A DNA stretch of 64,000 nt from Bemisia tabaci (lineage: Eukaryota > Arthropoda > Insecta > Hemiptera > Aleyrodidae), in contig NC_092795.1 of assembly GCF_918797505.1 (NCBI RefSeq), forward strand, positions 1,736,001 to 1,800,000, given 5' to 3'. A program made the translations under genes and the position numbers. The notes below the pieces were generated by a model. It ran no database searches. It had not been told where the DNA came from and saw nothing but the letters and a program-made list of their open reading frames with translations. This document shows, piece by piece, positions 18,831 through 64,000 of the stretch; within the stretch, counting starts at the first letter, position 1, and every line of letters starts with the position of its first letter.

Positions 18831-18834
18831 TACC

Positions 18835-19156: not shown

Positions 19157-19762
19157 GTAGTTTCATTGATTTTTACCCTAGAACCTTGTAAAGTCATGAG
19201 TCATCAAGGGTTTTGTACTTGTTTTGGCTGAGATTGCCGATTTTTTTATCGAGTCTGAGTCGAGTATGTTTCTTTTACAGTAGACACTAGAAATTTCCCT
19301 CACTAACAGTTGGTATTCTTTAGTATTACTAAAGACCGATTTTGTGTTTTTAGTGTAACATAATTTTTACTTTTTAGATTTTTGTTTTGTCAATATTGTG
19401 CCTCAATATATTTATTTGACATAAAATTCTTGAGTGTTCTCTTTTCAGTATCAAATGCTTTAAGCCACCAAACTTGCAAGTTTGGTACAGTTCCAAAATT
19501 CCATGACCTCTCCTAATTCACAAAAAATCACAATCTTTGTATTATGAAATTCCTGTTTTTCCTCCTTTTTTATTGGAAGTACGGTTCCAACTTCAATAGC
19601 TGAGAGAATTATGAGTATATTATGTATTATTATTCAAAAAATTTCCCATTGAGAAAAGTTGGTTCTTTTACAATGAATTTGTTCCACTTATTAATCCTTT
19701 AAAAAAGCTGAACGCAGAGAATTGCATTTAGCCTCACAGAAAGTGTAAGAAAAGTAGAGGGT

Positions 19763-19876
19763 TCCAATGAATTCATGTTGATGGTTAACGTACAATACCG
19801 CCTATCTGCAAACTGACGATTTTGCACGACGTTGAGAAACCTTTGCCATTTTTGTAATTTTAAGGTTAGATTTGCA
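19763..19876 (-). repeat. Repeat family 2, copy 1
   Basis: About 110 bp that recurs in inverted orientation at 23228-23330 inside HDAC1 copy A. Shared words are CCTATCTGCAAACTGACGAT and GCCATTTTTGTAATTTT. Read on the coding-like strand, both copies give the peptide words LKLQKW and NRQFADR. See the findings. Confidence 0.55.
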
Positions 19877-20049
19877 ATTTTTTTCATACATTACAGCGTC
19901 ATTGAAGCGCTCTCCTACAGAATTGGAAAAAAATTAATATCATCAGCTTGCATATTTTACACTGTAGAATGCGGGAAAGTCGCTAACTCATTTTTGCCAG
20001 ATTTGTCAGTTAGGCGGTGTAGTTTGTTACCTGTCGTACTGTTGATGTA

Positions 20050-22287
20050 GTAAGGTACGAGAAAGAAACCGCTATCATGTATGAAAATCAATACAAAATT
20101 TAATCTTTAAAAGATGAGAGAAATATGCAATACACAAAATGTACAATGAAGACACACATTGAAACATTGCAGACTAGTCTTTAAAAATTAAGATTCAAAG
20201 GTAGTAAACACAGACGACGATTGAAAGAATTCTTATTGATAAGAGGGTATAAAATCTCAAGGCCAGGAAACGTAAAAGAAACTTAATTGGAGGCCTCCAC
20301 CCTCCTTTATATCCTTCAGCAAAGTTGGCCTAAATATTTACAATATACAAGGAATTCGAGAGGGAAAATTGTTGCTTTGAAAAATGAGCAAACAACATTT
20401 GTAGATTTCCTAGTTAAATCTGCCCTGGAAACTTTTTTTCCAAGAACACAAGAAATGTTACAGGGGTGAATCACAGATTTTACCAACTCATCATTGGATA
20501 CAAAAACACTCTCTAAAAAAGGACGAAAACTTTCCGTGGCTTTGTCTCCACTAGACATTTTTACAAATTTAATTGTTACAAGCTCCTCGCGCAAACTTCA
20601 TTTCAGCTCAAAAGAATAAATTAAACAAAATACAAAGAAAAGCGAGGAACAAGACTCCAAAGAGTTGCAGCTGCGTCCATTTGTAGCAAAAATAATTTGT
20701 TGTCAAAAAACAGCTGTGGATACAAAGTAACATTACTTGATTTCCGAAAGAACATACAAATTGTTGCGAGTAAACATTAATTTTGCATTTCATCTACATA
20801 CAAGTGATTCTTCTCTAAATTTTCTGAATAAACAGTGCATAGTTTTCATCAGCATATTATTAACCCTTAAGTTCTGAATGTTCGATGCAATTGGAGGTTT
20901 GGAGGAGGCAAATAACACGCAACAAAATTAAAAATAACTAAAACGCTGTTCAGACACATCTTGTTTTGCAAGACAGTTGCTACAAATTGCAAACAAATGA
21001 CACAAATGTACCTTTTTAAAATATGTGAGGAGTGGATAGAAGTAAAGTTCATGATACCGAAACAATTTTCTCAAAAATCCTGAAATGCTCTATTCTCACT
21101 GCAGGCTCAGTTTTACAACAGCATTGACAGATTGTGTAAGGTTTTTGCAGAAAAATTGACTTCACCTACTGATATTTGGCAACACTCAAGTGAGATAGGA
21201 ATGTTATACACTGCCAGGCAGAGTTACAAATTGCTATAGCAAAAAATATGCGTCTTCCACAAAGTCATCGGTGACAGAACACCGATTCTAAGTTACTTAA
21301 GTTAAGAGATACAAAATTAAGAAAATTATGTTACTTCCATATCAGGAGATCAAAATTACATCAAATAAGCGTAAGAAAAAACTTCAGCATTTGCTTACTT
21401 TACAACCTAACAATTAACAGAATCGGTTCATTTTTTTTTATGTAAAAGAACGATAACAAAATAACCAGAATTTATTCAACAGCCTTGGGCTGATGAATAA
21501 GTTGTAGAGACTAGTGTATAGGTTGGTGAATATTATGTAATCGAACATACTCCCTTCATTACAACTCTATTGCTTGAGTCACACTATCAAAGCTAGCCAT
21601 CAAAATATTAGGTCAGGTGTTGTGATTAGCTCATTCGATGACTTGGACCATAACAGCACTTGACCTTGACATTTTGATCGAGTATTTTGATAGTGTACAC
21701 AGGCTTATGGATATAGTATAAAACAATACGACAGAAAATTAATGAAGTGACAATCATCATGCGCAAGATAATGATGCTCGACGCCAAGAGCCACATTCTG
21801 TTACGTTGCATTGATCAATTTTCAAAGGTTATTAACGTTATCTCAAGACTGATAAAGGACTCGATGATTGACCAGATAAAATAGGCTGTAAAAAAGGTAA
21901 AAAATTGAAAACTTGAACCCAACGAGTTATTTACATTATTCGTTTGAATTTATTTTCGGCAGTTCAGTTTTTCCGATGGCCGATGAGAATATCTCTTATA
22001 AACTAAGATTACACCAGTGTAAAATATCCTCATGGTTCTATTTAAAACAAAACATGTTAAACAAAGAATGCAATGAATAGAAAAAGGAACGTGTCAAGAT
22101 TCAAATGAGTAATTCGAAAAATTTGAGGAGAAAAAAAGAGAGCCAATTCTTCAGTTCTTGGCTAAGCAAAACAAACTAACGTCAGAGTTTCCCCATCATG
22201 CTATGGTTTTTTAATGAACAAAAACAGCTCAACCGGACACAGAAAGTTTCTGAACATCCCACAGAAGACCGAGTTGTGCTACCACAT
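20050..22287 (-). other. Probable 3' UTR and downstream flank of HDAC1 copy A
   Basis: No other gene is supported here. Poly(A) hexamers on the minus strand (TTTATT on +) occur at 21949-21954 and 21471-21476, so the 3' UTR may be about 340 to 820 nt. The exact end is unknown. Confidence 0.35.
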
Positions 22288-25200
22288 TTAAGGATTCTTG
22301 CCTTCAGTTTTGATTCCTTCTTCGATTTTGCCACCAGCATCTCCCTTTGCTTGTTCTAAACGTGGTTTTTTACTGGACGGCGTGGATCCATTTTTATATG
22401 ACCTGAAAGAAAAACAGAGAAACATTGTCAGTGTCAAGAAACTAATCAATTCAAAGGGTGTTAAAATATAAAGAAAATCTTGTAATTTGCGACTAGGTGG
22501 TCTATTAGAGTGGCAAATGAGGGGCAAAGCTTGAAGTGAAGTTAAGGCAACAACAGATTTGATAAATTAATGATCAACCGGCATTTACAAAATTTAAAAA
22601 AAAGAATGATAGAAAGAGAGGGAAAAATATAAATCAAATAGTAAAAAAAGGTGAGCAATTAATAAATCAATGTGTTGTCGGGAAGATGAACATTTTTTAG
22701 ACTGTTCACTGAATGAAACGTACCCGTAGTTGGACAGTGGAGAGCCTAGGAAGCATAGTTAATAATGAAATTGAGGGTGTAAAAAATTTGAGAAAAAAAT
22801 AAATCAATCAATAAAGGAAAATAAATAATTGAAACTTGCTACCAATTCACTATATGCAAGAGCTAGCACAAGAATAGCGGTAATCTCCAGAAACAGTGGT
22901 TAAAGCGGTCATATTTTGCCATTCACTTTGTGTGATTTCTTAACCTGATGAGATAGCATATTAAAGGCTAAAGAACAATACCGCTTGGCTGAGGATTTTG
23001 GCGAAAATAATTTAGCACCTTTGCCGCATTCTACAATATAAATTCGCAACCTGATGTTTTGATTTTTTCCGATTCCATGTGGAAGCACTGTAATAAAAGT
23101 ATAAAAAAAACTTCAGAACTAACATCGGACTTACAGTTAATTTTCCTCCCTTTTTTTCTCTTTTGTGTGGTCTTTGAGCTCTGTTCCTGTATTGTACTTA
23201 AATACATCAATTATAAATAAATCAAACTTCAAAATTACAAAAATGGCGAAGTCTTTTCTTCATGCTGAAAAATCGTCAGTTTGCGGATAGGCAGCATTGT
23301 TCCTTAGCCATCAATGTAGAATCCATGCACACAAAATGGCAGAAAATATGTTTACCCATTAATTTAAACCTACCTCTGATCTTTCCTGTTTCCACTTTCA
23401 TCATCGCTGTCGCTGAATTCGTTTTCGTGGGAGATGCGTTTATCTTGATCTCGCTGTGGCTTCCTTTCATTCGGATCGACTTTGTCCTCGTCATCATTCT
23501 CGTCCTTGATGGCATCCTCTGGGATCGCTTGGACTTGAACTCCAGGAGCATGGGGTAACATCCGTAGATTTTCAAACAAGCGTGTCCTATAAGAAAACAT
23601 CCGATAAAAGCCCGACATAATTAGTATCATCAAGCTACATTTCAAAGCAGACATGTTAAAGTTTGGTGTCTTAAGATTAACGAATTTGAACTCAAATCTG
23701 GGTACTTAATAATTTCTTTTCAGTCTTGACTATCTAAATTCACTCTCACTATTGAAATTGAAATAAGCTACTTGTCCACAAATTTGAGAAGCGAGAGTAG
23801 AAAAGTAAAATGAATTCTATTGTTAATCTTCAAACTGTGAAGGTATGCTTTTTTTGAGGGAGATTTACATTTTTCTGATTTTCAAGATTGGCGGGAAATT
23901 AGAAGATAATACTCTTTTCCTCACTTCAGCTGATTTTCGAGAAAACCTCTTGCGCCAATTGGAAAGAGAGAGGTTCGATGATTACCTCAGTGTTGATTCT
24001 TGTTGTTTCAAGTTATATCAATGAAAGAAGGCAAAGTAATACCTTCCTCACTCTTACTTTTCGTTTTTCCCTGAAAAATTGTTTAGTTCTTATTGAATAA
24101 TGCATTTGCATTCAAGAGGTAGATGAAAAATCTTTGAGTGTCCTACTTTAATAGTGGTTAAAAAGCAACTGCCTGGTGGACTGCCAAAGTTTCAATAAAT
24201 AATCTAAATTTGATTAAATGGGTGCAATAAAAATTGAGCTCACTTGATTTTTTCTAAATACTCTTGAGTGTTCTGATTTGCCATGTTGGAAGGGCTAATA
24301 TGGAGTTTAAAATCTGGGCCGAAGTATTCAAAATAGTCATTGTAAGGTAGCTCATTAGCGATCTCAACTCCAAGAGCCACGGATGTTTCATAGGTCCAAC
24401 AGCGAGAAACATTACGAATAGTATAACCTCCACCACCAACCATCATGAATGGTAGATTGTACTTCTTCACAAACTCTACACACTTTCCATGACCTGAAAA
24501 ATAGTTGGAGGAATAATTGAAACTTAAATGGAAAATGGTAAATCTGATGAGCCAGAGAAAAATTATACCTGTAAGGCCCTAAGTATCTTCTAAAAAACTA
24601 CATAAGATAAAAAAAAAATGCATTTTTAATGTACTCAACCTAGCTTTTTTCAACTTATCTAGGTACCTTGTTTTCGTTTCAAAAAACTGATTGTTGGGAA
24701 TGATTCAGGTTTATAAGAAAAGTAATACACAGGAAAATTGAAGAGAAAAAGTTTAGTAGAGGCAAAAACATCAAGAAACAACTGTGATGGAAACAAACAG
24801 TAGACAAGGTAAGCTGTGGAAAAATTTCTCCTTGTTTCTCCTGCTAAGATCCAAAGTGAGGGAAAATTTGCAATTAGGCTGAGAATGACAATCCGTTTAG
24901 TCCAAAATACGAGATGGTTTTGAGTATTTCAAAGAAAAATATATTCCTCATGGCGCACACCATACCTTTGACAGTCAAGTTGAAACAACCAAGCCGATCT
25001 CCAGTTAAAGAATCAGCGCCGCATTGCAGGACTACAGCACTAGGTTGGAACGTTTCCATAACTTTTGAGATAATCGGTACAAAAATTGATTCATAGCTCT
25101 CATCATCCATGCCATCTCGTAATGGAATATTAACAGCATAGTACTTGCCTTTTCCAGCACCAATATCCTATTGCAATTAAGAACTTGTTATCAAAACAGA

Positions 25201-28200
25201 TGTGCAAATGAACCTAACATAGCATGAGTTACCACCGAGAACTTTTGTAGCTATTAGTTACTATTATGGGATGAGAAGAAGGCAAATCTTGATTACAATC
25301 ATTCAGAGAATAAAACAACACATAGTTTCCTATGAAATGTTTCAAGAATATTTGACTCATGAGGGAAAGAAGTCACCGAGAGCTTTCAGAGATGGTAATG
25401 ATGGATTTGCCGTCAATAAAACTAGATGTGTTCATTTTTTAATTCATAAAACTTTGTGAAAATTAATAATTCGTGAGCCAATGATTATTCTAGATACCCA
25501 GTTGAACATTATTGTCATAAGCAATGATCGATTTGTTGCAATTCATTAACTTGGACTTCACTTTCATCTTGATGAATGAAATGACCCTGTAGGTCAAAGC
25601 AATTTTCTTTAATCTAATTGCATTTACATACCCAAAAGCTTACGGATGTTGAAAAATTGAGAGACTCTTTGTCTACAACTGTCCATACAAAAAGTTGCTA
25701 AATCAAACATATTAATGGTTGAGTAATTGAGAACATAGGAAAAATATTCACCCTGAGATCACCAGTTCCAGGAAAATATTCGCCATACTTGTGGAATGAT
25801 ACAGTCATGACACGATCCGTAGTGTAGAATGCTTCCTCAACACCGTCTCCGTGATGCACATCTATGTCTATGTATAAAACTCTTTGGTGATATTTTAATA
25901 GTTCCAAGATACCTGGAAAACAGAAATAATTCATTGAGTGAAAGAAAAAATCATGTGGGAGTGAAAGAATACCACTTGTAGACCTGCAGTTGTAGGGATG
26001 AAAAAAATACCCTTCGTTGCGATCCATGGATTTGGAGGACATTGGGCAGATCTTGAGATGTGAGGCAATTTTTAAAAGTGATTACCTTTGCTCCTCTCTC
26101 CTTCCTTTGTGACTAGGGAAATTAAGGTCACTTGAAAATGTTGCAGCGTGATCTCAAAAAAACGATTAGGACTATGGAACTTGTTGCACCTTCTTGTCAT
26201 AGAGAATAAATTTCAATGCAACTGCATACTTGATTTATTTCTTGAATAATGACTGTTTTCCCCTTCACTTACACCGAATGAAACCATGACTTTGACTTTT
26301 TTGGAGGGCTAATTTCAAGACCATTAGAGTCTCAGCATTCTATATTAATCTACTTAAAACATGTCCAGCCAATACTGGTTTAAAATTTGTCACTTAAAAC
26401 ATCCTGTTGGCACTAAAGAATTCCTGACAGGGATGCAAAAATTTCTTGGCTTACCCCAAAATTTGATGTTCTGCTATAATTGCGCCTCTACATAACACAA
26501 AACACTTAGAATTTCCTTACCCAAGAGCAGAGCGCTTGAATGCTTCCAGCACATAAGACAGCCTTCGCGTTTTTACATAAGTTGTCTATGAAACCAATCG
26601 AGATGGGTAAAAAAAAAGCCTTCTCTAATTTTCAGACCTTTCCCCAATTCTCATACACGCGGCCACAAAATCATGATAGCATGATAAAGAACATTCTGCA
26701 CTCCTCTTATCGCCAACTAAATTTAAAGCATGATATGTCATAAAAGGTTATCATATACCTGATAAAAGAGAAAGATCTATGAAAGTAATCTCTCAAAACA
26801 AACCTAAAACGATATCGTTGACATAACAAAATCCGGATGCTTCTGATTTTTTGGCATGATGGAGACCTCCACCCCAGTTAATGCATATTTCTGAGGCTTG
26901 CTTGTTTAATTTCACCGCTGCAGCAACTGATCCACCAGCAGATAATTGACAAAATTCGTACAAACCATCAAAGACAGGGCAGTCCTCTCCAACATTGACT
27001 GTTCACAGAGAGACGAAACATTTATTAGAAAACAGCAAAAAATTGTTCGTTTTCATTGATTAACTGGAAGATTTTTGGACAGAGTGAGCAAAAAATACTT
27101 ATTCTTTCCATAAAAGAGGAAGGAAGTAAAAATAGATTGATGAAAAGTTAAAAATAAAAAAAAACTCAACACTTATAGTAGTCGAATTAACTATCCATAC
27201 AACTGATCACTAACTAAGGGTATGTTGAATTTCTCTTTGTCAGAGTACTTACATCTCTGCATCTGTTTATTGTATTCTGAAATGTTGTCTGGCCGAATAC
27301 TACGCAGAAACCGTATGTATTCATCACTATGAAATTTGGTCATTTCTTCAGCAGTAGCTTTGTGAGGTCTCTGTAAAACATACAAGAAAAAAATAAAATA
27401 GTGCATTGCCCATCCATTTTACTGCCAGTCAGCAGACTGTGAAGCTAATCTTACAGGCCTTTTCAAAAACCATTGAGGTTATTAATGGAAGAGGTGAATG
27501 TATGAAATAGAGTCATTTTAAATAACAGGCATAATTTTTGTTGCATACTTTGCACCTCCCTCTCGAAAAGAAAGTGAGTGAAACAAGAACGAAAGCGGAA
27601 AATTCTAGATGAAGTCAGAGGAAGACATTATTCTTGATGTCCAAATTTTTTACAAATTAGTATCAGCCATTTTCCTTCGAAACCTGGAAGAGCAAATACT
27701 TGTTTAAGATTTTTTTAGGTTCTTTATCCTTTCAGGGAACTACAACCTTGAATAGGAGCTGTTATTCATAAAAGAAGTAAATTATAAGATTTTTTTTTTA
27801 CAAAAATGTAGAAAATTGAAGTTGAAGACTTTTTCAACTTCATCAAGTTTTTTCAAGTTCTTTCTCATTCCCATCTCCCACTTGGCTGATAACTGAGAAA
27901 TTAAGGAAACCAGTCCGGAAAATTTTTTAGTACAAAAATAACAAACAAACTTCAGAGAGTAAGACTTTGGAGAGTAAGACAGATTAAGTGCAGTAATGAT
28001 TATCGGAGGAAAAAATGAATATTTTAATCAAACCACATGTATATTATCAGCTGAAATTGTTTGATCATAGGTGGAATCATGACAAAAAAAAACAGCTTAA
28101 ATGAATTTCCTCACATAGACTTCCATCTTCCTATAGAGGCCATAATTTAGCAGCAAATTGTGGGTCATCCTTATGCGATGGGGCTTCATGGGATGGCCTT

Positions 28201-29277
28201 GTCCATAATAGTAATTTCCAATATCACCTGGATAGCAAAAAATTAAAATGTAAGAGCAGGTAGAAAACGTCAACTTATACTGCATTAAGTATTAGCCAGC
28301 CTGGGTCCTTTGATTATCCTACTATGCCTGCATCTTAACCCTGAAACAATACTTTATGCCAGTCGATGGCCCTGCCCCCTGGCCGTAATTTTTTGTGCTG
28401 TAGACGAGTGCTAATGGTAAGTTCAGTAATTATTAGTCTTGGGAATGAATTATATGATGTTTGAAATTCCTTGTTCTAGGCATATGAACCACTGATAATT
28501 CTACAGGGTAGTGTGTATGAATCAATTAATGAATGAATAAATAAGGGACTTGCTCGCATGTCATGAGGTAGTCAAAACCTCGCTAGAGGTTGGAAAAATC
28601 CTAAAAATAAAAGAAAAGAAAAAAAACCTCCTCATTTAAGTCCTGTCTAATAAGGAAGAGCTCTAGGCGGCAAGCTGAGATATCGTTAGATGTTCACACA
28701 TGACGTACTCGTATTGGATTCATCAGAGATCAAGCATGCTAAAATGTTGGTTATGTGCTTTTCAGTCCATGCAAACTTACAATCCTCTATAGCATAGGTC
28801 AAGCAGTGAAATAACTATCAATCATCAGTCAGCAAATACTCAAAGCTTGAGCAATAGAAGTATGTATTTAGAGGGAAAACTTTGTTGCACCTATAAAATT
28901 ACACAAGGCAGGCTGAAACCCGCCACCACCTCATGTGTTGCTTGCAATTTTAATGAGGCTATCTCCCCAAGATTTTAGCTTTGGAAGTTAGAGAGCTGTA
29001 AATTTGGGAGGATTCCACTTCTTTTTCGAGATTAAAATCTGCCAAATGAAAACTTGGCACGCCACCGGCCCTTCTTTGGTTTGTCTGATGAGAAGTTATC
29101 AAACTTAAAAAGACTATAGGAGGCTCTCATAATTGTCTATAGATTGGGAACTGATTCCGATCGTGAGTGAATATATGATTTGCAAAGCTGAATGAACGCG
29201 TGGTTAAATATGTAAGTAGAAGAAATCTTACAATCATAGTAGTAGCAAACGCGCTTCTTGCTGTGAGGGGCAGTCAT
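22288..29277 (-). CDS. HDAC1: Class I histone deacetylase HDAC1/Rpd3, copy A
   Basis: Nine coding exons in transcript order: 29277-29232, 28227-28115, 27370-27253, 26998-26804, 25912-25752, 25167-24966, 24493-24244, 23586-23374 and 22402-22288. They total 1413 nt (470 aa plus stop). The enzyme removes acetyl groups from histone lysines with a Zn ion, as the core of Sin3, NuRD and CoREST complexes. Catalytic features match human HDAC1 minus one in numbering: HH at 139-140, D175 and H177 in [10 protein letters not shown]263 in [10 protein letters not shown]302 in GGGGYT. The inositol-phosphate contacts K30 and R305 are present. The acidic tail keeps the CK2-type EFSDSDDE block, and IKTE near the end fits a SUMO site. 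Residue 16 is Cys where copy B has Ser and human has Gly. The last intron of copy B is absent here. Exon 4 uses a weaker GTTTGT donor. Confidence 0.96.
23228..23330 (+). repeat. Repeat family 2, copy 2, in the last intron of HDAC1 copy A
   Basis: Inverse of the copy at 19763-19876, about 80% alike by eye. It lies just downstream of exon 8 in the sense of copy A. Confidence 0.55.
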
Positions 29278-29799
29278 TGTGAGATTCAACTGATTGAAGT
29301 GCTTCACTTGCACTGGTTACAGTATTGAGAACTATAGTGACAGAATTTCCGAGAAAATTATACTTAATCACTGTGATAATAGATTGTTCTTATCAATGTT
29401 AGGGTAAAAATTCATTTAAAGTTTTTTGGTGCAGAACAGAAACAGGAGAAGGAAATCCGAAATAGACCAATAGACTGTCATTGTTTACAATGGAGTATAG
29501 GCAACACGCAATACGATTTTCGTTTCACTTTAAAATTCTAATCGATGACGTTATGTGATAACCTTCCATGTCTTTGCTTTGATGGGCAAGCGTCACTCAC
29601 CCAGCGCTCTCTGTTGTCGATGGAAGGAATGATCCGACGTTGTCTTGTCGATTGTCACTCGAAAAATTTTGTTTTGAATTTCATTCTAACTTAAATTTGA
29701 GTTTACTTGCATTTTTAGTTGAGTGCAATTATTAAGTGCATGCCATAAGGCTTTAAAGTGAATTTGGACTCTTATCACGGCCAGTATTTCGCAGTAAAA
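29278..29799. promoter_or_regulatory. Shared divergent promoter of the two HDAC1 genes
   Basis: The 522 bp between the two start codons must hold both 5' UTRs and both promoters unless further non-coding exons exist. A TGACGTTA (CRE-like) word lies near 29545-29555. The palindrome CATTGTTTACAATG lies near 29479-29492. A less AT-rich block with CGACGTT and TCGATTGTCACTCG follows at about 29580-29660. No TATA box is obvious on either side, which fits a housekeeping promoter. Factor binding is inferred only. Confidence 0.6.
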
Positions 29800-32700
29800 A
29801 TGCAAACACCTCACAGCAAAAAGCGTGTTTGCTACTACTATGACAGTAAGTAACCCTATTCTTCCTTCGCTGTGGCTCTCTTTTTGAACTTAAAAGCGGA
29901 AGTCTTATCTTCTGCTTTTAATTTCACAAGTATTTGCTTTTCAATTATGAAATGTGTCCTTCCTTTGACAGGAATAACAATTTGTCAGATTTGATTGGCA
30001 TTGAGAGTCAGCGACTACACCTCAGACGGTCAGTGCAGCGGCCGCCACTCCGTCATTTGAATGTTTAGAATATGTAATCATAAAAAATTCCAAGAGACTC
30101 AGTTCACTCCACACTTTAATAACATGAGTGCTACTGTCCCTTTTAAAACCTGCTCTAAGGAAAAGAAATTCATAAATTCTTCTGAATATTTAAAGTTACA
30201 TCTAGCACTAAGACATTAAGCGCATAGACTCATTTGTTTAGGATAGTCTGAGAATTAGATTTCAGTCATAAAAATGTATTGTTCTCAGAATATAGTACCA
30301 TCAAAAATTGATTATAGCTATTTTAAGTGCGCTTGTTTTATTTTCCCTTTCTCTGAATTTCCTCTAATGGTCCCCTCTTTTTTTCTTAGGTGACATCGGA
30401 AACTACTATTACGGCCAAGGCCATCCAATGAAACCACATAGGATAAGGATGACCCATAATCTCCTCCTGAACTATGGTCTATACCGGAAAATGGAAGTTT
30501 ATGTGAGTATGACGCGTTTTTAGTTAATTAAGTGAGACCACTCCTTTTCAACCTTCCATTTTGCCTCCTGTCAGTCAATACTAATCCAGAGAAATGGGAG
30601 GTACAAAAGAGAGAAGCATAAAATTCATGAAGGCAGAGAAAATTCACCGAGTCCATATTTTTTCTTAATATTCCAAAAATTTCATGTGTTACTTTATTTA
30701 CTGGTTGAGAATTGATATTTATCCTAATACCTCGTGAAGCCTGAGGCAAAACCACCCTGCATCTCAAGGTGTCCTCTCCCCCTTTTAAGGTGATTCGTCA
30801 AGCTCAAAAGAAGTAGTCAAACCGGCATGCGATATTTCTCATCTTTTAGGTAAAAAATCTCGGGAGATTTTGAATATTTAGCTAAACAAAGGACGATAGC
30901 CCCTCTGCAGGAGCCTAAATAATCAGTCTGAACCTTAACATTGGCAAAATTCAGAGAAATGAAAGCAGAATAGTGTGTGGAAAAAAATCTCGCATTCCAT
31001 TCAGCTATCGATTTCTGTATCGAATACAAGTTTTTTTTCTGAATACTATTCTGCTTTCATTTCTCTGAATTTTGCCAATTTTTGGGGTTGGAATGATTCT
31101 ATAGGCTTGGGCGCAGGGGCTATCGTCCTTTTTTTGCTAAAAATTCTAAACAAGCCGAGAACTTTGACCTAATCGATGCGATATATTGCATGCCAGTTCG
31201 ACCACGTCACTTGAGCTTGACGAATCACCTTGATAGCTTTGTATTTTTTGTAGAAAATGGGAGAAACTCCTCTCTTAGCTGTGATAAACCTTGGATGATC
31301 CAATTTCTCTGGATTCTCCTGCGAACAGATGCCCTCTGTTTTAGGAGAACTGTGTCTTTTTTAAATTGATGCTCCTCCTTGTGCTAGAATGAACTTGTAT
31401 TCGTAAGAAATACAAGGTAATCCAAAAGTCTCACACCACCTATACAACCTCAAGGGTTCTTGCCGTTTTTCACAGTGATCCCATGAAAATTTGTTGAGAA
31501 GAAAAGTAGTTTCCTTTGACCTAGGAGCACTCACTAAATTTCAAGTCGTTATCCTAAATTTGTCCGAAAGTTACAGAGGTAATGGCATTGCAGGACTTTT
31601 GGATCACCTTGTGAAATTTTATACATTTTTTATTCAATTATTTTCTAAAATCACCGTGATCTATCAACTAAACCCTATCATAGGGAAAGAATGAGAATGA
31701 AGTTGTCTGATGGTCTCTATATCCTCCAAAATTCTTGGAACAAAAATAATTGCGTTAGAAAAAGTACCATGAGTATTTTCAGTAGCTAACTAATTATCAT
31801 TCATTTACAGAGGCCACATAAAGCCACAGCTGAAGAGATGACTAAATTTCATAGTGATGAGTATATCAGATTTCTTCGCAGTATTCGACCAGATAACATG
31901 GCTGAGTACAACAAACAAATGCAAAGATGTAAGTTGATTCTACCTCTTATCTTTCCATCTCTCCTCATTCTCAAACATGCCGTGCGAGGCTTTTTTCCTG
32001 TCCTCTTATCTAGCTTCAGAAAGAGTGATATCAAAATATTTTTGCTCTTGCATAATCTCCCGTACTAAGGAAGAACTCTGTATGAACCCTCAGGTGTTGC
32101 CAAATTTCCCTTTATGAAATACACATTTTCAAGGAAATCTGTCAATATTTTTCTTCCAATTTATCCGAGCATTTTATCTGCAATTTACTTAATCAAAAGC
32201 ATCTGAAAATTTCAAAGACTCTCAATAATTTTCTTCACGATAAATATGTTATCACAAAAAATGTGGCAACCTTAAAATGTTTGTATGGCGTTTTTCAATG
32301 GCAGGGTAGCAATAGAGAAGAGTGGGCCATTAATTTTAATTGTCAAGAATAAGCTTTTAACCTTCGCAGGCTATTGCTATCGCATTCATTTGGACTATAG
32401 TCAATGAACAAACACATGAAGCTTTTGCTGCCACCAAGAATCAATACTTGAGTGAATCAATGAACTGTCAAATATTTTTTTAAAACTATCCAAGCTTCTA
32501 TCATTTACATATTACGTGTCATCTAAATTTTAAGAACATATGTTTCCCTTAATTTTTCAAGGAAGTTTACCCCTGGTGGACCTCGATGGTTAACCCTGAT
32601 GAGATCATAAACCCCCAACAAATTCCAATCTAACGGACTTCATTCTCAGCCACAAACCTCAAACTATAACTGAACCCTCCATCTCATAAATAGTTTTTAT

Positions 32701-35700
32701 TCTCACTCAAAGAATTTGCTCGGCATAGATTAGGAAAAAATCAGTAATTTAAAACCGATAGTCACTTGTAAAACTTATCAAATCATCGCTCTCCTGACAT
32801 GAATGTTCATTCGGATTTTTGTCCAAAAAATAATGCAAACAGGATGGATAGGAAACAGGAAATCGGGGAAAAATCAGAGAATGCAACTCGACTGGGAAAA
32901 GTCAGGGAATTTTTTTTGGAGCCGGGTTCTACATAAAAATCGGATCCACAACAGGCCAGCTGATCAGAATTGTGCCAACCCGATAGCGCTTTCAAGCGGT
33001 CAAAAAACCCAGGGAATTTCATTGGAAGAATGATAAAATGAAATGTTGGTAGCCTTCTCATTTTCTGTTCGAAATCGCAGGAAAAATAGCGTGTTTTGAG
33101 ATGGAAAGCGAGTAATTGTTTAGGATTGAACGCATCCGCTGGAAATTCCCCTCATATTTTGCAATACTGAGATGAATTGCTCGTGATTTCTCACCTTGAA
33201 CAAGCAAAAACCAAGCAAGCAACTGTTCGAATTCCGGAGTAGGTATGTGGTATCAGCAAAGTAAAAGGTTTTTGCACATTTTTTTCACAACGGAACAATT
33301 ATCCGAAAGAAGCAAGAAACTATCTATCAAAACATAGTCAAGTCGCACATTGTGCCCATATATGGAAATCTCAGAAAGTTATTCCGTCTGTTAGGTACTT
33401 ATTAAATTATGGAAAGTATGTTAACATTGACGCAAAGTCTGAAAACAAGTGACTCTCAGGGAAATTCAGGCTTTGTCTGGCAGTAACTGACTCCTTTTTC
33501 ATTGAAGGTAGCAGATTTAACCCTAAGAGCCTCTTATTTTCAAACAGATTGATAATGTGATCAATTACTCCATGGAATCCCAATATTTTTACCATTCACT
33601 CATTGAAATTTTTCCCCTATTTCAGTCAATGTCGGGGAAGATTGCCCTGTTTTCGATGGCCTATATGAATTTTGTCAATTATCTGCCGGTGGATCAGTAG
33701 CAGCAGCCGTCAAATTGAACAAACAGGCATCAGAAATCTGTATCAACTGGGGTGGTGGACTCCATCATGCAAAAAAATCAGAAGCGTCAGGCTTTTGTTA
33801 CGTCAATGATATCGTCCTCGGTGAGCTTCTTTAACTAATTAACCACTTTGCAGTAATCGTAAATAACTGTTTGAATTATTCCCAGCCTCCCTATTTTGAA
33901 GAACCTTAATTTTTTCAAATTTCAAAAAAATTATTTTCTCTCCTTTTCTTTTTTCCTGCTTTAATTTTGCTAGTTTTCATGTGTTTGCAGGTTCCAATAG
34001 TCAGATAGCCAAGAAAAGCCGGCCCTCCTATGAAATTCATTATTCTTAATATAAAATTTTTTATTTCAGGTATCCTAGAATTACTGAAGTATCATCAGAG
34101 AGTACTGTACATTGATATTGACGTTCATCATGGTGATGGTGTAGAAGAAGCGTTCTATACTACTGATCGTGTCATGACCGTATCTTTCCATAAGTATGGT
34201 GAATATTTTCCTGGCACTGGAGATCTCAGGGTATGAGTTATTTCTCTAACTTTATTTAAATTTTATTGCAGTTCATATTTAATAACAACTTTGTATACAG
34301 GAAACAAAACTAAGCCTGATGGATCAGAAATGGCTCAGTCTATTTTCATCTGGTAGAATATCCAGTTTGTTTTTCTAGGTTATTGTAGAAATTAAAGTTC
34401 TGTCTACTGTTGACTGTAAAACTGTGTATGATGCTTGCAAATGCTGCTACCAACGCAGAGCCAATCACTTTATTCCTGAGCTACTGTAACTGGTCTCCAA
34501 ATTTTTTAACAAAGCAAGGTCTGTAACCATTGGCGCATCCAGAAAAAAATTTAGGTTAAAAGAATGTTTTGGGGTAAAATTATCGGCAAGCTTAGGTCTT
34601 AATCACTACCAGTTCCCATAATTTTCAATTCAATGCTTATGTATAAGAAAACACTCCAAGATGGTCAATGTGCACAAATCGTGGCAAATGCTTGATTCAA
34701 GTAAAAATATAAATATAACGATAGCAAAATTTAAATATCCTGATCACGATTTTGGTGTTTCTAAGCCTCTGCTCCTAATTTATTTTTAGCATAGAAAATG
34801 CAACTATGTTGCCGGAGACTTCCACATAATATTAGCAGAACATAATGGGTAATCACTGAAATCGTAAAAAAATTAAAATATTTTTCCTAGAATGAAATAT
34901 AGGGTAATGACAATTTTGCAATGTTTCAAACGTGATTAAGTTGTTTCTAAATTAGGTTATCAAGAAGATTTGTCATGTTGTTGCACAGCCCCACTTCGTC
35001 AGTAAGGATATGATGGAGTAAATGGATTTTCTAATTTTTGGCTTGATTTTTTAATTTAGGACATCGGCGCTGGCAAAGGGAAATACTACGCTGTTAATAT
35101 TCCTTTAAGAGACGGAATGGATGATGAGAGCTATGAATCTATTTTCGTTCCGATCATCTCTAAAGTTATGGAAACATTTCAACCAAGTGCCGTTGTTTTA
35201 CAATGTGGTGCTGACTCTCTAACAGGAGACCGTCTGGGTTGCTTCAATCTCACTGTGAAAGGTATCAATGATTATTTTCATGTTTTATACCAACAGGGTT
35301 TTTTTTTTTGTTTTTTGACCAAAGTTTGGTGAACACTTGTGGCTGAGAACCATGCTTACTTTGTATGATGGCAGTGCGTTTGATTCTTAACATCTTTCTA
35401 GCCAGATTGTGTCTGGAACATAACCGGCCAAGGGAATATGCTGTATGAACATTTGAGTGTCACCAAATTTCCTCTGATTAATTGTTCATTTTTGAAGAGT
35501 GATATGAATATTTTCTCTTGAAATTTTCAGATAATTTAGATTTGACTGGGTGGAAAATATATGCAAATTTTCCGGAAAATTCATGCTGTATCGAAAAAAT
35601 TTGGCAACGTCTAAAGGCTCACACAACATTCTTCCTTGGCACGGCAGAATATTTTGCAAGTTTCTGCAAAAAGTAGTTTTTTTTTCTGACCTCAACTGAC

Positions 35701-38700
35701 AAAATCATCATCGTTAAGTCAACTCCAGGATTGCTGTAGTAAAATTTGTTCTAAGAATAAGATTTAAATAATAATTTTTTTTGGATAAATTCTTTATTAC
35801 GTATAAAAATTGGACTGCATTTTGCAATTTGGAACTATAAATTCTGGCTCCTCTGGAAAAACATGTATGTGCATAGGGAAACTAATGGCACATACGTTGT
35901 TTTTAAACCGGGCTAGAATCCATAGGTCCAAATTGCAAAATGTGGTTGAATTTTGATGGGATGGTCTTAAATCACTGTAATACCATAAAAGTCATAACAC
36001 AGGAAGTAGTTATATCAGAGTATTACTGTACTACTCTAGAAAGAGGTAACAAAGTTGGCAAGCGAAGATAGTCAGTAGAATATCTATAAATCCAATCAAA
36101 CACAGTAACACAATGAGGTGACAAGGCAGCTAGAGGGCATGAAAACTAATATTAACTATGTAAGATTGGCAGGATGAGATGGTGGAACAAAACACTCCAA
36201 GAGATATTAATGTTTTGATTTTTTCAGGCCATGGAAAGTGTGTAGAATTTGTGAAGAAGTACAATTTACCGTTCTTGATGGTCGGCGGAGGAGGCTACAC
36301 AATCAGAAACGTATCTCGCTGTTGGACTTACGAAACATCTGTTGCGTTGGGTGTTGAAATAGCCAATGAACTTCCTTACAACGACTATTTCGAGTATTTT
36401 GGTCCTGATTTCAAACTGCACATCAGTCCGTCAAATATGGCCAATCAAAACACTCAAGAGTACCTAGAAAAAATTAAGTAAGTTGAGTTGTTGTTTATTT
36501 TTCACATTTTCATGTTTCCCTCTTTGATAATTTTGGGGAATTTTTTTTCTTTCTCTCTTTGGTTTCTAGCTACTCATATTTTTGTTTCAGCTGTCAATAT
36601 TTTTTTTCTTCATCTCCAGCATTCCTAGTTTTGGAAGTCTGTTTGCATGTGAGAGGAGCTTACATCTGGTTTAGAAAAGGCATCGAAATATAAGAAGATC
36701 AAAGGATCTTCCTCTCTCTAATTAATATACATCCCTGTCCTCAGAAAGTGAGATCGCTGTTCAGAAAATTCAAAATTGAGGTATTAGCGCTACTGCTTAG
36801 GAGAGTTGCTCAAACATTTTGGCACATAAAAAATGCCCAACCATGTCAAAAGAAGTCATAAGTATGACAGTTTGTTCTTTGTAGTGCGGAATAAGTCGTT
36901 TTCAGAAAATACTATTTAAAAGTTTTCATCCAACATATTTCAGGCTCTTTCTTGTTGGATTGATATAAAAATATTCATCCCTCATCACCCCCATAATGGA
37001 TTTAACTTCCTAAAGCTGATTCTTCATAATACTTTAAAGTCCTTTCTTCCGAAAACTCCACAGTCATACCTATTTATAACGAACTCACTTTTGATGAGAT
37101 TCCGCCTGTAATGAAATAATTTCGAATCCTTGTATATTTTTATAAGCGGCCCATAGAAAAAAGCCTGGTTTTAACTAATTCTAGGACCTGGATGTTCACT
37201 TCTAATAAAGTATTTGCTGACGAAAAACGGCAATTTTTTCTGAATACTAAGGAACAAAATTCATTGAAAAATATGTGAAGAAAATTCTAACTGTCAGAAG
37301 AGATATTTATAGCAATAATAATAAAGGACCTTTAGTACTAGCAGTGGCTAACAACACCCCCCCCCCGGCCGATGATATACCCTCGGGTGATTCCGGCACG
37401 TCTCAGAGTACTGATACCTAGTTGTGTATTAAGTTGCAGTTAAGTCTTAATAATAAGAATGACATGTAAATAATAAGTCTTGTAAAGTGTATGATAACTA
37501 TGTATTTTTCTGAGATAAAAAAAAAAAAAAAAAAAATAATTCATTGAAACCTAGGGTGTTTTGGTTTTTTGTCAACAAAGAAATCCGAGTATGCAGTCCC
37601 AATTTTTTTACCAATTGTGGTAGAAATCTTTTTCATAAAAAATCTGCTATTGTGCTCCAAGACCCCTTTTCCTATAGGTGATGTTATGTATTCAATTTAT
37701 TGGTGTCCTGATGGAATCTTAAAATCCTGTTTCAGGACTCGCCTCTTTGAAAATCTCCGCATGTTACCTCATGCCCCTGGTGTACAAGTTCAAGCAATCC
37801 CGGAGGACGCCATCCCAGATGATATTGAAGATGAGGACAAAGTTAATCCTGATGAAAGAAAGCCGCAAAGAGACGAAGATAAAAGGATCACTGCTGACAA
37901 TGAATTTAGTGATAGCGATGATGAAAGTGGAAACAGGAAAGATCACAGGTACCACTATGCTTTCAGACTGATTTCATAAAATCAAAACATTCTATTTTAA
38001 CGCAACCGTTTTGCTTGCTTTCACTGTATCCTAAAGAACTTTTCCAGACCTTTGTGAAGTTTAATTGGCGTTCCTGTCGAATTCAGCTTTAGTAAAATCA
38101 GCTTTAGTTTCCAGTTTGACACAAAGCTTACCCATCCAATCTTCCAGTGAATGAAGATGATAATTACAACTGATTACAATATTTGTAACATTGAAGTTAA
38201 AGATTTAAAATTAAAAATTAAATTAGGTGAAATGGCTAGTCTAAAGTGTAAATGAATGTTGCAGGGCTGAAAAGTGAACTTGGGTTTTTTTTTAAATTTT
38301 TGTTCAATGGTTCAGTAGTGGAGAAAGTAATAATCGAGCAGTTTTCCCTGAAAACATTAAAAAAAAACCCCAAAAAATTGGATTCTTTCCCTGCTAAAAC
38401 ACGATAAGAAGCATCATTCTGAAAATGAATCAAGAAGCACCTCCTCGCATGATTATGAAGGTTTGTCATAGACACTTAGATATCTGTCCATTTGCAGAGA
38501 TGATGAAACTTCTATCGTAATTGGCAAACAAGGATGGCAATAATCATAAGTTAAGTCTTCCTCCCCCCCCCCCCAAAAAAAATACTGTTTTTTTCTTCTT
38601 TCTTTTTAAATAGAGGTGGTCTCATTTCTTACTAAACTAGAGAGACTTTTTACTGTGAATCTATCTTTAAATCGCGTTTTCCTCATCTCTTTCAGATCAT

Positions 38701-39668
38701 TCAAGAGCGGTCCATCAACGCCAAACAGCAAGAGGCCTAGATTAGAGCAAGTCAAACCGGATGGTGACACCAAAGTAGAAGAACCTGTGAAAACAGAAGT
38801 TAAAGGTAGGAAGCAATTAGCAGATTTTTTTTCCATCTCTGGCCTAATTTGTCTTAATTCCTGAATTTTACTAATGACAGGAAAAAGACTTGAGCTTTTG
38901 AGCAAGCCTCTGAAACCAATCCATGACATACGCAGCATCAGCTGAGAAATAATACCTCCTTTTTGTGACTGCTCACAGAAAAATGTGGGGTTTTCAGAAT
39001 TAACATCTCAAGATTAAGGCTTTTTTATCATGGCACCACCATGTAAAGGAATTTTTCCGGATATTCTGGCATGGAAACATTGAAAAGGGTCAAGGCAAAT
39101 TGTAGTTGTGATGGCTTTAAATGAACAGACTTTCGGATGTCATTTTAAAGAGATGCTGTATACATACAAAGTTTTTCTCATCCATTTTCAGGACTCAAAT
39201 CATCAGATTCAATTTCAATGCATTAAAGAAACTGAAGTACTCTAAAATTATTCTTAGGAACACTGAAAAGTGTTTTCTATTGTTTACTGAAATCCAATCA
39301 CTCTAAGTAACACTAAGTTTTTGCATGTGTAGATATGCCTAAAGAGCCTATTTTCCCCCAATCCATCCTTTTTAAAAGGCAGCATGCAAGGCTTTGGAAT
39401 GTTGTTGTGCTTGTGTCAAATTATTTTCAAAAATTCCTCTCAAAAATTTTGATTCCTGAGATGATGACAGTTTTGCAAAAATCTCAGGAAATTTTGATGG
39501 CATTAACTATCTGGCTAAATACCAGATAGCGCAATTATCTTGCATTCCGTATATCTGGCCCAACTCTAAATTTATTATATTCTATAATAAAATATTATAT
39601 CTAGTGTATCAAAGTAGACATCATTAAGTTCTTAATTTTTATCTCATCTTTCTTTTGCAGATTCATAA
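29800..39668 (+). CDS. HDAC1: Class I histone deacetylase HDAC1/Rpd3, copy B
   Basis: Ten coding exons: 29800-29845, 30390-30502, 31811-31928, 33626-33820, 34070-34230, 35060-35261, 36228-36477, 37736-37948, 38696-38805 and 39661-39668. They total 1416 nt (471 aa plus stop). The first eight exons have exactly the lengths and phases of copy A. All catalytic residues are present (H139, H140, D175, H177, D263, Y302), with K30 and R305 of the inositol-phosphate pocket, so it should be an active nuclear deacetylase. The tail has the CK2-type EFSDSDDE block, a KRPRL basic word, and ends VKTEVKDS, close in form to the human HDAC1 end with its sumoylated VKEE. The final intron leaves an 8-nt last coding exon (two codons and a stop). 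Introns carry many mobile elements. Confidence 0.96.
30787..31231. mobile_element. Foldback MITE of about 445 bp in intron 2 of HDAC1 copy B
   Basis: Ends AAGGTGATTCGTCAAGCTCAA and its exact inverse at 31211-31231. Arms continue inward for about 190 bp with matching words (GGACGATAGCCCCT / AGGGGCTATCGTCC, and AAAATTCAGAGAAATGAAAG / CTTTCATTTCTCTGAATTTT). It is non-coding. Confidence 0.9.
31412..31612. mobile_element. MITE of about 200 bp in intron 2 of HDAC1 copy B
   Basis: Inverted ends ACAAGGTAATCCAAAAGTC and GACTTTTGGATCACCTTGT. The inside is non-coding. A related inner word, TCAAAGGAAACGACTTTT, is seen near 49300, next to a GATGATCCAAAAACCT end at 49213. Confidence 0.75.
32090..32310. 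repeat. Decayed copy of the GGCAACGTCT / CACGGCAGAAT repeat family
   Basis: Lies in intron 3 of HDAC1 copy B. It keeps GTTGCCAAATTTCC, CAAGGAAATCTGTCAATATTTTTC and the closing GGCAGGGTAGC in the order seen at 35445-35655. It is degraded. Confidence 0.4.
32811..33060. repeat. Repeat with GGGAAAAGTCAGGGAATTTT words
   Basis: Carries several CAGGGAATTT-type words in intron 3 of copy B, with a related short piece near 3740-3790 (AAAGTCGGGGAATTTATGGCAACC) in the PP2C gene. It looks like an interspersed non-coding repeat. The class is unknown. Confidence 0.4.
35445..35655. repeat. Best-preserved copy of the CACGGCAGAAT repeat family
   Basis: Lies in intron 6 of HDAC1 copy B. Words include ACATTTGAGTGTCACCAAAT at the left, ATTTGGCAACGTCTAAAGG in the middle and TTGGCACGGCAGAAT at the right. 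Copies or fragments are at 12590-13170, 32090-32310, 43450-43560, 43930-43950 and 58240-58340. Confidence 0.55.
35810..35956. mobile_element. MITE family 3 copy in intron 6 of HDAC1 copy B
   Basis: Inverted ends TTGGACTGCATTTTGCAATTT and AAATTGCAAAATGTGGTT, with the inner inverted words GGAACTATAAATTC and TATGTGC / GCACATA. Other copies are at 43582-43965, 48447-48590 and 61420-61565. Confidence 0.75.
37320..37540 (+). mobile_element. 3' end of an A-tailed retroelement in intron 7 of HDAC1 copy B
   Basis: A GC-richer body (GGCCGATGATATACCCTCGG and on) follows a 10-C run at 37357-37366. A TAATAAT-rich stretch and a run of about 20 A at 37519-37538 close it. This is the expected look of a truncated LINE or SINE 3' end. 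No reverse transcriptase frame is present. Confidence 0.5.
38563..38582. repeat. Poly-C/poly-A tract
   Basis: Twelve C residues followed by eight A residues in intron 8 of HDAC1 copy B. It is one of six poly-C runs on the + strand in the right-hand part of the window. Confidence 0.7.
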
Positions 39669-41780
39669 CATCTCTGAATTTGAAGTCTGAAGATAATCTC
39701 AATTATTTTAATGTGTTGTATCCTATCATCAAACAAGAAATCAGAAACCTCGCAAAAACTGCTCACGACCTACGAACCAGTAGATTGCTACAATAAGTTA
39801 AGAAACCTCTGCCTGACGAAGTTTTCTGTTCCAATCGACTTCCGGCACTATTTATTATTGTAATCTCCTGAATTCGATCATTCAGCGTTAAACATCCTTG
39901 TTCCTAAGCCCTCTCTCCCAAATAGCGTCAATTTGCAATCATGTTTTTACACTTTTGTTACTGAATTATCTGTATGTTCTATTGATCTCCTACGATTTTA
40001 ATTTTTCGTTCCCAGTCCTTACATGTTGTCACGTCTTAAATGTGACTTTCGTTCTCCTATAAAATTCACTGGTCTTGATATGTTTACTTATTTTTTTTTT
40101 CTTAGTGTACAATGGTTAAGTGTAACCGAGAGTAACATTTACCATCCAATCTCATGAAAGGGCTCCTTTTCTTTGTAAACCTAGGCCTCGATGTTTTTAA
40201 GAATTATTTTCTCTTCACCTCTATAAATTCAATCTTATTTTATGACCTTAATTGTGATTCCTACATCATCTCCTGTTTAATTAAGCGTATTTTATTGATG
40301 TTATGATCGACGACTATGACTGATTGCACCTTTCATTCTGAAAAATTGTCATCAATGACCGTAATTTTTTTTCTGTCATTAGATTTTGCAGACTCATTTT
40401 GTGTCTCAATGGTAGAGTCAAACCAGAAAACATAATATCACCTCATTATACTTCCCTCATGGGCCTACTGCGATCATAATTTTTCCAAGGAGGGAATAGC
40501 TCTCGTCTAGAGTGTTTGATGTGTGACAGAGGGCAAAAAAAATTGAACGTTAAACGATTTCAAGTTATGTCACGCCCTGAACAGCATTGAAAACTGCCAT
40601 TTTTAGCATCAAAAGTGCTAAATCGAAGCTTTACCAGCATCGGTTTTTTTTTTTTTTTTTAGATGATAGGAGGATGTTTGAAAAAGTAAATTTAAGTACT
40701 TTTAGATTGCATGGCAGGCATTTAAATAGAGAAGGGTAATTCTGTAGGTCAAAGTTTTTGCACTGTATTCATTGAATCTCCCAATTTAAAAACGATCGCG
40801 ACCAATCTCGGAAAAATTAACTTTTTCAGGAGACGAGAAGAACTGCATAACAGCCAAGAAAAGAGTGTTTTTACGCCAAAAAAAAATGGACATCGTTAAA
40901 AATCCCAGTTGGGTCGTTTTCAAACTGTGAGATTCTATTGATAAAAGACCTCTTACCTCAGGCCCCTTAGGTGTACAGTCAACGTTCTTTCTTCAAAACA
41001 ACCTCTTTTTTGACCAGCAGTTTGACCTTTCCGATCACTGTGGAGAAATAGTGTTCTGCGTGCGCAAAGTAAATAAGTAATCAAACAGAATTTATCTTTT
41101 CGTCTATATCTGTAAAAATCGAAAAATAATTTATAATGATTCCTCGATATTTGATGGAATTTTCCACAGCATGTGATTAGTAATTAAACTGATTATGAGT
41201 TCATCCCTTCAGCCAGAATTTTGGTCATATATTTGACCAAATCGTGCAGTGAGGATGTTCGTGCACTTGGATTGTTGAATGAGCGCGTGTTTGTGTGTAC
41301 ATACCGAGAATCTGAGTGTCTTAGTTCAATTTTTTGTCGATTAGCGTCAATAGCCATCAAAAGCGGATGTTAATTTGCTTGCATATCTATTTTTCTTCCC
41401 TTCGATGTAATCCCTGTTTTCCAGTTCATTTCAGTCCAGCAAGGATTGAAAATTGTAAATTTTTTAAACTAGTTTCGTTTATATTTTTATATAACAATGA
41501 ATTTCAAGCTAAAGTATTATCAGAAAGTTCAAGTTGATTGGTTACTATAAAATCTATGTCGCTATGATTTTTGTATAAAATTCCAGTAAAATCTTGGTCA
41601 TCCATAAAATTTGTGAAAGTTGGCCTTAGCCCAGAAAAGCTAATGCCTAAGTAGCAGAGTAAATGTAACATGAAGTGTTGGATTTGTTTGTAACACACTT
41701 CACAACGACTAATTTAAGAAATTTCAGAATGTGATAAAGAAATCAATTTGAATAAGTAATAAATTTAATAAACATTACTT
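39669..41780 (+). terminator. 3' UTR of HDAC1 copy B with poly(A) signals
   Basis: Two overlapping-type AATAAA hexamers at 41758-41763 and 41767-41772 follow about 2.1 kb of sequence without a supported gene. A long 3' UTR is likely but its end is inferred. It contains no clear repeat apart from a T run near 40644. Confidence 0.45.
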
Positions 41781-42502
41781 TTGTTCATTTCAATTCATTC
41801 TGTTTGAAGGACGCAGTAAAACTTTCCACGTCCAACTCACCAGTGAGTAATCAGCGATTTTGGTTTTTGTCAGTTCACGCTTCTCTTTCTGCTCATAAAT
41901 GCGGAAAACTATTCAATTCAAATGGAGCACTAAGTCACTCTCGCTGTGTTTTATCGTAGAAGAAATTTACTGTGTGCTGACTTTTTTTTCGACGAGATAG
42001 AAGTGCCATGTATCAGACGTGGAGCAAAATGGTGATTCAATTAAGCTTCAGTTAGTCCAACGTATGGGTTGTTTTTGATGGCTAGTTTCACCTACGTTTA
42101 TAGTGGTTTTTTGCCAGAAGTTTGAATTTTGTATTCATTATGTAAAATAAAAACGCCAACTGCTCTCTTAAGAGTTAATTTATAAGTTTTTGTTAGTTTC
42201 AACATATTCTGCAAGAAAATTTGATGAGACACGTCTTTAAGAGGTCTAATTCTTCTTTGTGTTGCTGTTCTGGAAAATTTGCCACCATGCACTAAGGTCC
42301 CTATTCTCTAGACAGTCACTCATATGTTGAAATATATAAAAGAAATTGGAAATGTTGTTGATGCAGCATGATTTATTTAAATCGCATCGATGAGAGATAC
42401 AATTGAAGAACAATTTTTCATCAAAAGTTTTTAAACATTTTAAATCCCTAACAAAATTCTATTTATTAATGATCCTTCATACATTTTAAAAAGCATATCG
42501 TT

Positions 42503-42600
42503 GGCCAAAGTGCGAAACCACATATCTCCGTTTGCGCCGTTGCAGACTTCCTGTCGTACTTCATCGTTTCATTGGAAAACTTGTCAACTAATTACTTTTG
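42503..42600. repeat. Partial copy of MITE family 4
   Basis: GGCCAAAGTGCGAAACCACA followed by CCGTTGCAGACTTCCTGTCG, as at 51988 and 53551. Only the left half is present. Confidence 0.55.
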
Positions 42601-42667
42601 GATCTTTCCACAAGATGTCTGACTTAAATGACTAAAAGATAAAGAAATTTTACAGTTTTTTTCAGCC

Positions 42668-42907
42668 ATGAGAAATGTGAAAGGTAAAATACAGATTACC
42701 ATCAATCTAGGGAGATCTAACGATAAGAATGCGATAAGGTATTTTGCCCGGTTGTTTTTAATACACATAAAATACAGAGAAGAGATTAGTTTACTAGATG
42801 ATTCAGCTCTATTTAAGATTAAAGGAAAACTACAGAGGACTGAAAGCCAGGATACGAAAATTAGTTTGCAATGGCCAATTGAGCCAAAAAATTGTCAACT
42901 AGGTTAA
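42668..42907 (+). other. Unrecognised 79-residue open frame
   Basis: Starts with a true ATG just after TTTTTTTCAGCC, which also looks like a splice acceptor. The frame is rich in Lys, Ile and Arg and has no recognised domain, signal peptide or membrane segment. It adjoins a partial MITE. Probably chance, but kept because it is the only sizeable ATG-led frame in this gap. Confidence 0.12.
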
Positions 42908-43965: not shown

Positions 43966-43999
43966 ATTCTTCAATGATCACATCTCACATCTTGATAAG

Positions 44000-62460: not shown

Positions 62461-62519
62461 TTTTCCTTTCATGAAAGGTTTTAAGACTCTTGAACTCTTA
62501 CATTGCATCTCGTCATTTT

Positions 62520-63933: not shown

Positions 63934-64000
63934 NNNNNNNNNNNNNNNNNNNNNNNNNNNNNNNNNNNNNNNNNNNNNNNNNNNNNNNNNNNNNNNNNNN
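63934..64000. other. Assembly gap (N run)
   Basis: All bases from 63934 to the end of the window are N. Confidence 1.

Follow-up and report, generated by a model that had tools for sequence, protein, structure and literature searches.

Introduction

Histone deacetylases (HDACs) of the HDAC1/Rpd3 type are mostly encoded by a single gene in insects. In a survey of 1451 species, the median HDAC1 count was one for insects and two for chordates (PMC10707265). HDAC1 and HDAC2 show mutual compensation in the mouse brain, where HDAC2 has a unique role as well (PMC4773893). The class I HDACs of Nilaparvata are given as HDAC1 and HDAC3 in a study whose HDAC tree includes Bemisia tabaci among 19 species (PMC6303786). 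The pea aphid genome possesses expanded gene families for histone deacetylation (PMC3335499), and three putative HDAC1 homologues of this insect showed increased expression in bacteriocytes on the third day of nutritional stress (PMC6209921). Here we describe two HDAC1/Rpd3 genes lying head to head in the whitefly B. tabaci (RefSeq assembly GCF_918797505.1, contig NC_092795.1, positions 1,736,001 to 1,800,000; this whole stretch of 64,000 nucleotides is called the window, and all coordinates refer to it). The pair is best read as the product of an ancient duplication in the whitefly lineage, after which both copies appear to have been kept under extreme constraint. A sequence-only reading of this stretch had called such a maintained pair unusual; this holds as a tendency, given the median of one, and the aphid homologues make the whitefly case not a unique one.

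No paper on this pair was found by title or opening abstract in a literature coverage largely without subscription journals, so we do not claim that it is unpublished or unannotated. In a paper on chromatin remodelling in Bemisia (PMC9163341), both mentions of histone deacetylase concern Arabidopsis.

Two complete HDAC1 genes in divergent orientation

Exon reconstruction, with GT..AG at every intron border of both copies, revealed HDAC1/Rpd3 genes on the minus strand (copy A) and on the plus strand (copy B), whose ATG codons at 29277 and 29800 are separated by 522 bp, exactly the divergent arrangement of two complete class I genes described in the sequence-only reading. The locus is composed as follows.

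22288..29277, minus strand: HDAC1 copy A, 9 coding exons, 470 amino acids (exon reconstruction, GT..AG borders)
29277-29232, 28227-28115, 27370-27253, 26998-26804, 25912-25752, minus strand: copy A, exons 1-5
25167-24966, 24493-24244, 23586-23374, 22402-22288, minus strand: copy A, exons 6-9 (stop codon ends at 22288)
22288..23543, minus strand: copy A, C-terminal tail starting with residue 377 (exons 8 and 9, intron 8 included; start derived from exon lengths)
29278..29799, no strand: shared intergenic region of 522 bp, candidate bidirectional promoter by inferred function
29800..39668, plus strand: HDAC1 copy B, 10 coding exons, 471 amino acids (last exon uncertain)
29800-29845, 30390-30502, 31811-31928, 33626-33820, 34070-34230, plus strand: copy B, exons 1-5
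35060-35261, 36228-36477, 37736-37948, 38696-38805, 39661-39668, plus strand: copy B, exons 6-10
37779..39668, plus strand: copy B, C-terminal tail starting with residue 377 (exons 8 to 10, introns included; start derived from exon lengths)

The first eight coding exons are equal in length in both copies (46, 113, 118, 195, 161, 202, 250 and 213 nt) and match in phase, which agrees with the earlier description, and all eight pairs of corresponding introns are unequal in length. Exon 9 has 115 nt in copy A and 110 nt in copy B. The span 22288-39668 given for the pair was likewise reproduced, except that its right end is uncertain: copy B may end in an 8-nt last exon (39661-39668), which has a good acceptor, or exon 9 may be read through to a stop at 38864. 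The reconstructed reading frames of both copies are free of stops and frameshifts. A tblastn search of the 64-kb window with both proteins gave 36 hits, all starting within 22288-39668, and no third HDAC1 copy.

Two introns of copy B carry inverted repeats. Those in intron 2 (30782-31236) are nested and imperfect, with arms of 108-126 nt that are 78-79% complementary, and look like a decayed palindromic mobile element; the one in intron 6 (35803-35957) is short, with 70-nt arms and 74% complementarity.

Divergence between the copies

Of 470 aligned residues, the two proteins have 438 in common. In the catalytic core, 370 of 376 residues are identical (98.4%), whereas the C-terminal tails differ at 26 of 94 aligned positions; the copies diverge mainly in the tail and presumably also in their regulation. 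At the nucleotide level the picture is a different one: the aligned codons are only 79.4% identical, and 101 of 154 fourfold-degenerate sites differ (0.656, compared with 0.714 for random sequences of the same composition). A codon model of the Goldman-Yang type, coded for this analysis and fitted by maximum likelihood, gave for the core a synonymous divergence (dS) of 3.6 and a ratio of nonsynonymous to synonymous rates (omega) of 0.002, and for the tail an omega of 0.012. Among standard estimators, that of Nei and Gojobori (NG86) was undefined, and that of Li, Wu and Luo (LWL85) gave a core dS of 1.5. In the distance profile, 0.6 times the best value costs 3.7 log units and three times this value costs 3.1. 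A core dS above about 2 is therefore favoured, although such values mean little beyond 'near saturation'.

The two halves of the locus (18001-29538 and 29539-45000) were compared in inverted orientation by blastn with E values up to 1e-3. Eight blocks were obtained, one for each of coding exons 1-8 (E from 3e-10 to 9e-68), and seven of these exon pairs also show up as inverted arms with 80-84% complementarity; the resemblance of the two halves is thus not accidental. At this threshold no homology was detectable between the introns or promoters of A and B, and the ninth exons were without a match as well.

These data bear on two explanations in which the duplication would be apparent or young. 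Near-identical proteins encoded side by side in inverted orientation can signal misassembly, and the pair could then be one gene assembled twice, from two haplotypes or through a misjoined duplicate. However, alleles would not have 79.4% nucleotide identity, nearly saturated fourfold sites and introns that cannot be aligned, and the sole run of N in the window closes it, at 63934-64000. The divergence of silent sites and introns rules out a haplotype or assembly duplicate at the level of the sequence, and we give this explanation practically no weight; an assembly with a single copy, named earlier as the outcome that would overturn the pair, is not tenable for the same reason.

The 98.4% identity of the core proteins could also suggest a recent duplication, the copies being kept alike by gene conversion or constraint, or one of them being a young pseudogene. 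Against this, the silent sites are near saturation, core identity is even along the sequence (0.72-0.88 in 60-nt bins), and the longest identical run of 32 nt is not significant (permutation p 0.09). The run-length permutation and the binned identity revealed no clear gene-conversion tract, and recent conversion is thus unsupported; the intact reading frames of both copies do not fit a young pseudogene. A recent origin is therefore extremely improbable. Judged by the codon model, the duplication is old, and purifying selection on both A and B has been extreme ever since. Omega values this low in two copies with nearly saturated silent sites can hardly be accounted for without a need for both during most of that time, but they are no proof of a present need for both.

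Origin of the pair

A phylogenetic tree, which the sequence-only reading had proposed for both copies, was constructed from 27 sequences, i.e., A, B and 25 of 131 listed HDAC hits that were hand-picked across insects and outgroups; A and B are the whitefly sequences in it. (The protein database searched is clustered at 90%, and the absence of whitefly HDAC1 among its best 120 matches is uninformative on annotation.) Copies A and B form one clade apart from the 25 other HDAC1 proteins, with ultrafast bootstrap support of 92 for the core and 100 for the full proteins; the psyllid, aphid, fly, beetle and crustacean sequences fall outside it. In the core tree, 8 of 24 labelled nodes have a support below 60, so that only this grouping is relied on. 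Furthermore, both copies have valine at position 52, where all 25 others have isoleucine, and glutamine at position 355, found in none of the 25.

It follows from the clade of A and B that the duplication postdates the split of whiteflies from psyllids and aphids. Alternatively, the copies could be paralogues older than the insect orders, one of which was lost in most insects. Synonymous divergence near saturation would accommodate this, as silent sites then give no firm upper age limit, but the clustering of A with B and the derived V52 and Q355 common to them argue against it, and we consider such an ancient paralogy very unlikely. The best reading of the sequences remains an ancient duplication in the whitefly lineage. 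In the full tree, the branches since the A/B split average ~0.085 and the stem measures 0.133; the corresponding values of the core tree are 0.006 and 0.004. If the clock were constant, the duplication would crudely fall at about two fifths (full tree) to three fifths (core tree) of the whitefly branch, counted back from the present; such dating is limited by the faster evolution of A (full-tree branch 0.107, B 0.064), by the frequent acceleration of duplicates and by the unrooted stem. Prokaryote genome contigs, scanned for whitefly DNA present as contamination, yielded 19 pattern matches and no relative.

With silent sites near saturation, a core that is 98.4% identical and a clade of their own, the copies bear out the earlier claim of a maintained, intact HDAC1/Rpd3 duplicate.

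Protein family and functional residues

Both proteins match positions 1-296 of the 298 of the Pfam family Hist_deacetyl (PF00850; 309 bits for A, 310 bits for B), and residues 2-465 of the copy B query align with the human HDAC1 structure sequence 4bkx. Among the best 60 of 136 matches, copy B scored 871 bits with human HDAC1, 864 with full-length HDAC2, 629 with yeast RPD3, 586 with HDAC3 and 347-365 with HDAC8 entries, so that within these matches it is closer to HDAC1/2 than to HDAC3 or HDAC8. In the clustered protein database, the protein with the top bits among those listed, a 668-residue 'HDAC2' of Myotis brandtii (P0001), is only 75-77% identical over 71-75% of the query; it is probably a repeated or fused gene model.

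Residue numbers were transferred through the core alignment to human proteins. We take the zinc/catalytic positions to be H140, H141, D176, H178, D264 and Y303, and the inositol-phosphate site to consist of K31, R270 and R306 (human numbering). On this list, six of six catalytic and three of three inositol-phosphate residues are kept in both copies, in line with the sequence-only reading. Besides these nine, mutation of seven surface residues of human HDAC1 alters its activity or complex binding (PMC12448893), and all seven cofactor-surface residues named there are present in A and B, which is consistent with deacetylase activity and corepressor-complex assembly. In all, 16 of 16 functional residues examined are kept in both. 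The acidic stretch EFSDSDDE, whose human HDAC1 counterpart is EFSDSEEE, is kept as well.

In the core, A and B differ at six positions, namely 2, 3, 16, 83, 84 and 295. At position 16, copy A has cysteine (serine in 20 and cysteine in one of the 25 other proteins); at 83, it has a unique isoleucine (methionine in 24, gap in one); at 84, copy B has alanine (serine in 13, alanine in one); and at 295, copy A has methionine (leucine in 19, methionine in 6). Such changes (C16, I83 and M295 in A, A84 in B), or the diverged tails, might direct the copies to different complexes or signals while the core chemistry stays the same. The far greater divergence of the tail (26/94, as against 6/376 in the core) and the unequal branches of A and B would suit this specialisation at the protein level. 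On the other hand, a tail omega of 0.012 still means constraint, and the identity of the seven surface residues means that no complex-sorting change is visible. In addition, C16, M295 and A84 are each present in at least one of the 25 other proteins, leaving I83 alone as unique. Specialisation of the proteins as such seems rather unlikely, though it deserves some weight.

The shared intergenic region

The 522 bp between the start codons have an observed/expected CpG ratio of 0.97, compared with 0.54 in the body of A, 0.56 in that of B and 0.64 in the window; this is the 91st percentile of 522-bp windows. No TATAAA, TATATA or TATAWA was found on either strand of the region, which contains one CCAAT (29467) and one ATCGAT overlapping one TGACGT (29541-29551). 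Drawing on general insect methylation biology, this CpG/TATA profile would suit a bidirectional, broadly active promoter unmethylated in the germline, flanked by methylated gene bodies. Together with the CpG value, the distance is suggestive of a functional bidirectional promoter; note, however, that 522 bp is measured from ATG to ATG, whereas the paired-promoter criterion (<1 kb) concerns start sites, and upstream untranslated exons are possible.

Possible reasons why both copies were kept

We propose that a single insect HDAC1/Rpd3 gene underwent an inverted duplication in the whitefly lineage, resulting in two head-to-head genes around one intergenic region. Both copies would make active class I deacetylase subunits and join the same corepressor complexes (NuRD, CoREST and SIN3 types), and the CpG-rich, TATA-less region between them would serve the two genes as a bidirectional promoter of the housekeeping type. 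The pair may have been kept because the total HDAC1 dose was split, or because expression or the diverged tails were partitioned, as with vertebrate HDAC1 and HDAC2. Taken as a whole (ancient inverted duplication, two functional copies, shared promoter, sharing of dose or roles), this explanation appears probable to us. Of the possible causes of retention, dose sharing and partitioning of expression would be the most likely, followed by specialisation of the tails; the sequence-only reading had named dosage or tissue specialisation.

Several points weigh against this explanation. Both genes are known here as DNA sequence alone, and the HDAC1 copy count covers the 64-kb window only. Values of dS beyond about 2 cannot be relied on as numbers, and the profile disfavours a threefold distance as well. 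The idea of a shared promoter rests on distance, CpG content and the absence of TATA motifs; the intergenic CpG value is equalled or surpassed in 8.5% of 522-bp windows, the gene bodies lie just modestly under the window mean, and the span of the neighbouring TMEM62 gene is similarly CpG-poor (0.57) while the stretch 62000-63400 is richer (1.29). In a region of 522 bp, chance alone will produce single motif matches, which are no evidence.

Whiteflies are haplodiploid and symbiont-bearing. A bolder version of the proposal would make the pair a whitefly-wide counterpart of HDAC1/HDAC2: two obligately co-expressed deacetylases behind one bidirectional promoter, present throughout the family for perhaps 100 million years (a crude figure from the proportion of branch lengths and a split date, rather than a measured age), with distinct roles of the tails, e.g., in bacteriocytes or in sex- or ploidy-dependent chromatin. 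All this taken together is unlikely. In practical terms, targeting of HDAC1 in Bemisia would need to hit both genes, or one may mask the effect of the other.

Other features of the window

Further genes of the window lie on either side of the pair.

3059-9867, plus strand: PP2C-type phosphatase gene (Pfam 230 bits)
53183-59018, minus strand: TMEM62 gene, approximate joined exons; best match a B. tabaci protein (98% over the whole query), next match 55%

Within the phosphatase gene, the two strands of 6456-6880 each carry long open frames whose translations resemble one another, which points to an inverted repeat or a mobile element. The CpG-rich stretch 62000-63400 has a G+C content of 0.46 and is possibly the promoter of a gene beyond the window. 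Scans for tandem repeats and tRNAs added nothing.

Comparison with known systems

Vertebrate HDAC1 and HDAC2 are, like the whitefly pair, two near-identical class I deacetylases derived from one ancestral HDAC1, and copy B aligns along the whole core to the structure sequences of both human proteins. Human HDAC1 and HDAC2 lie on different chromosomes. The whitefly pair, in contrast, represents an independent, lineage-specific duplication whose genes are adjacent and head to head.

Insect Rpd3/HDAC1 belongs to the same family and has the same core; that of Drosophila suzukii (P0005) has a core identity of 96.0% to A and 96.8% to B. Usually it is one gene (PMC10707265), whereas Bemisia has two in inverted orientation. 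The pea aphid is, like the whitefly, a sternorrhynchan with extra HDAC1 genes. Its additional Rpd3-like copy (P0078) is divergent, with a core identity of only 86.2% to A and 87.0% to B and a long branch, and joins the conserved aphid copy (P0012) with a support of 100. The aphid duplication is thus separate from the whitefly one, and its additional copy is fast-evolving.

In Drosophila, 94 of 2,199 head-to-head gene pairs less than 1 kb apart (4.3%) are tandem duplicates, with odorant-binding proteins as the named example (PMC2670823), whereas the whitefly pair encodes a core chromatin enzyme and has nearly saturated silent sites. Each element is already known; combined as they are here, with a head-to-head layout, a near-identical core and nearly saturated silent sites in an insect gene that is typically single-copy, they make the pair a notable new instance of a familiar kind. 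Since HDAC1 is typically single in insects, an intact pair at such silent divergence offers a clean natural experiment on the retention of a duplicated chromatin enzyme.

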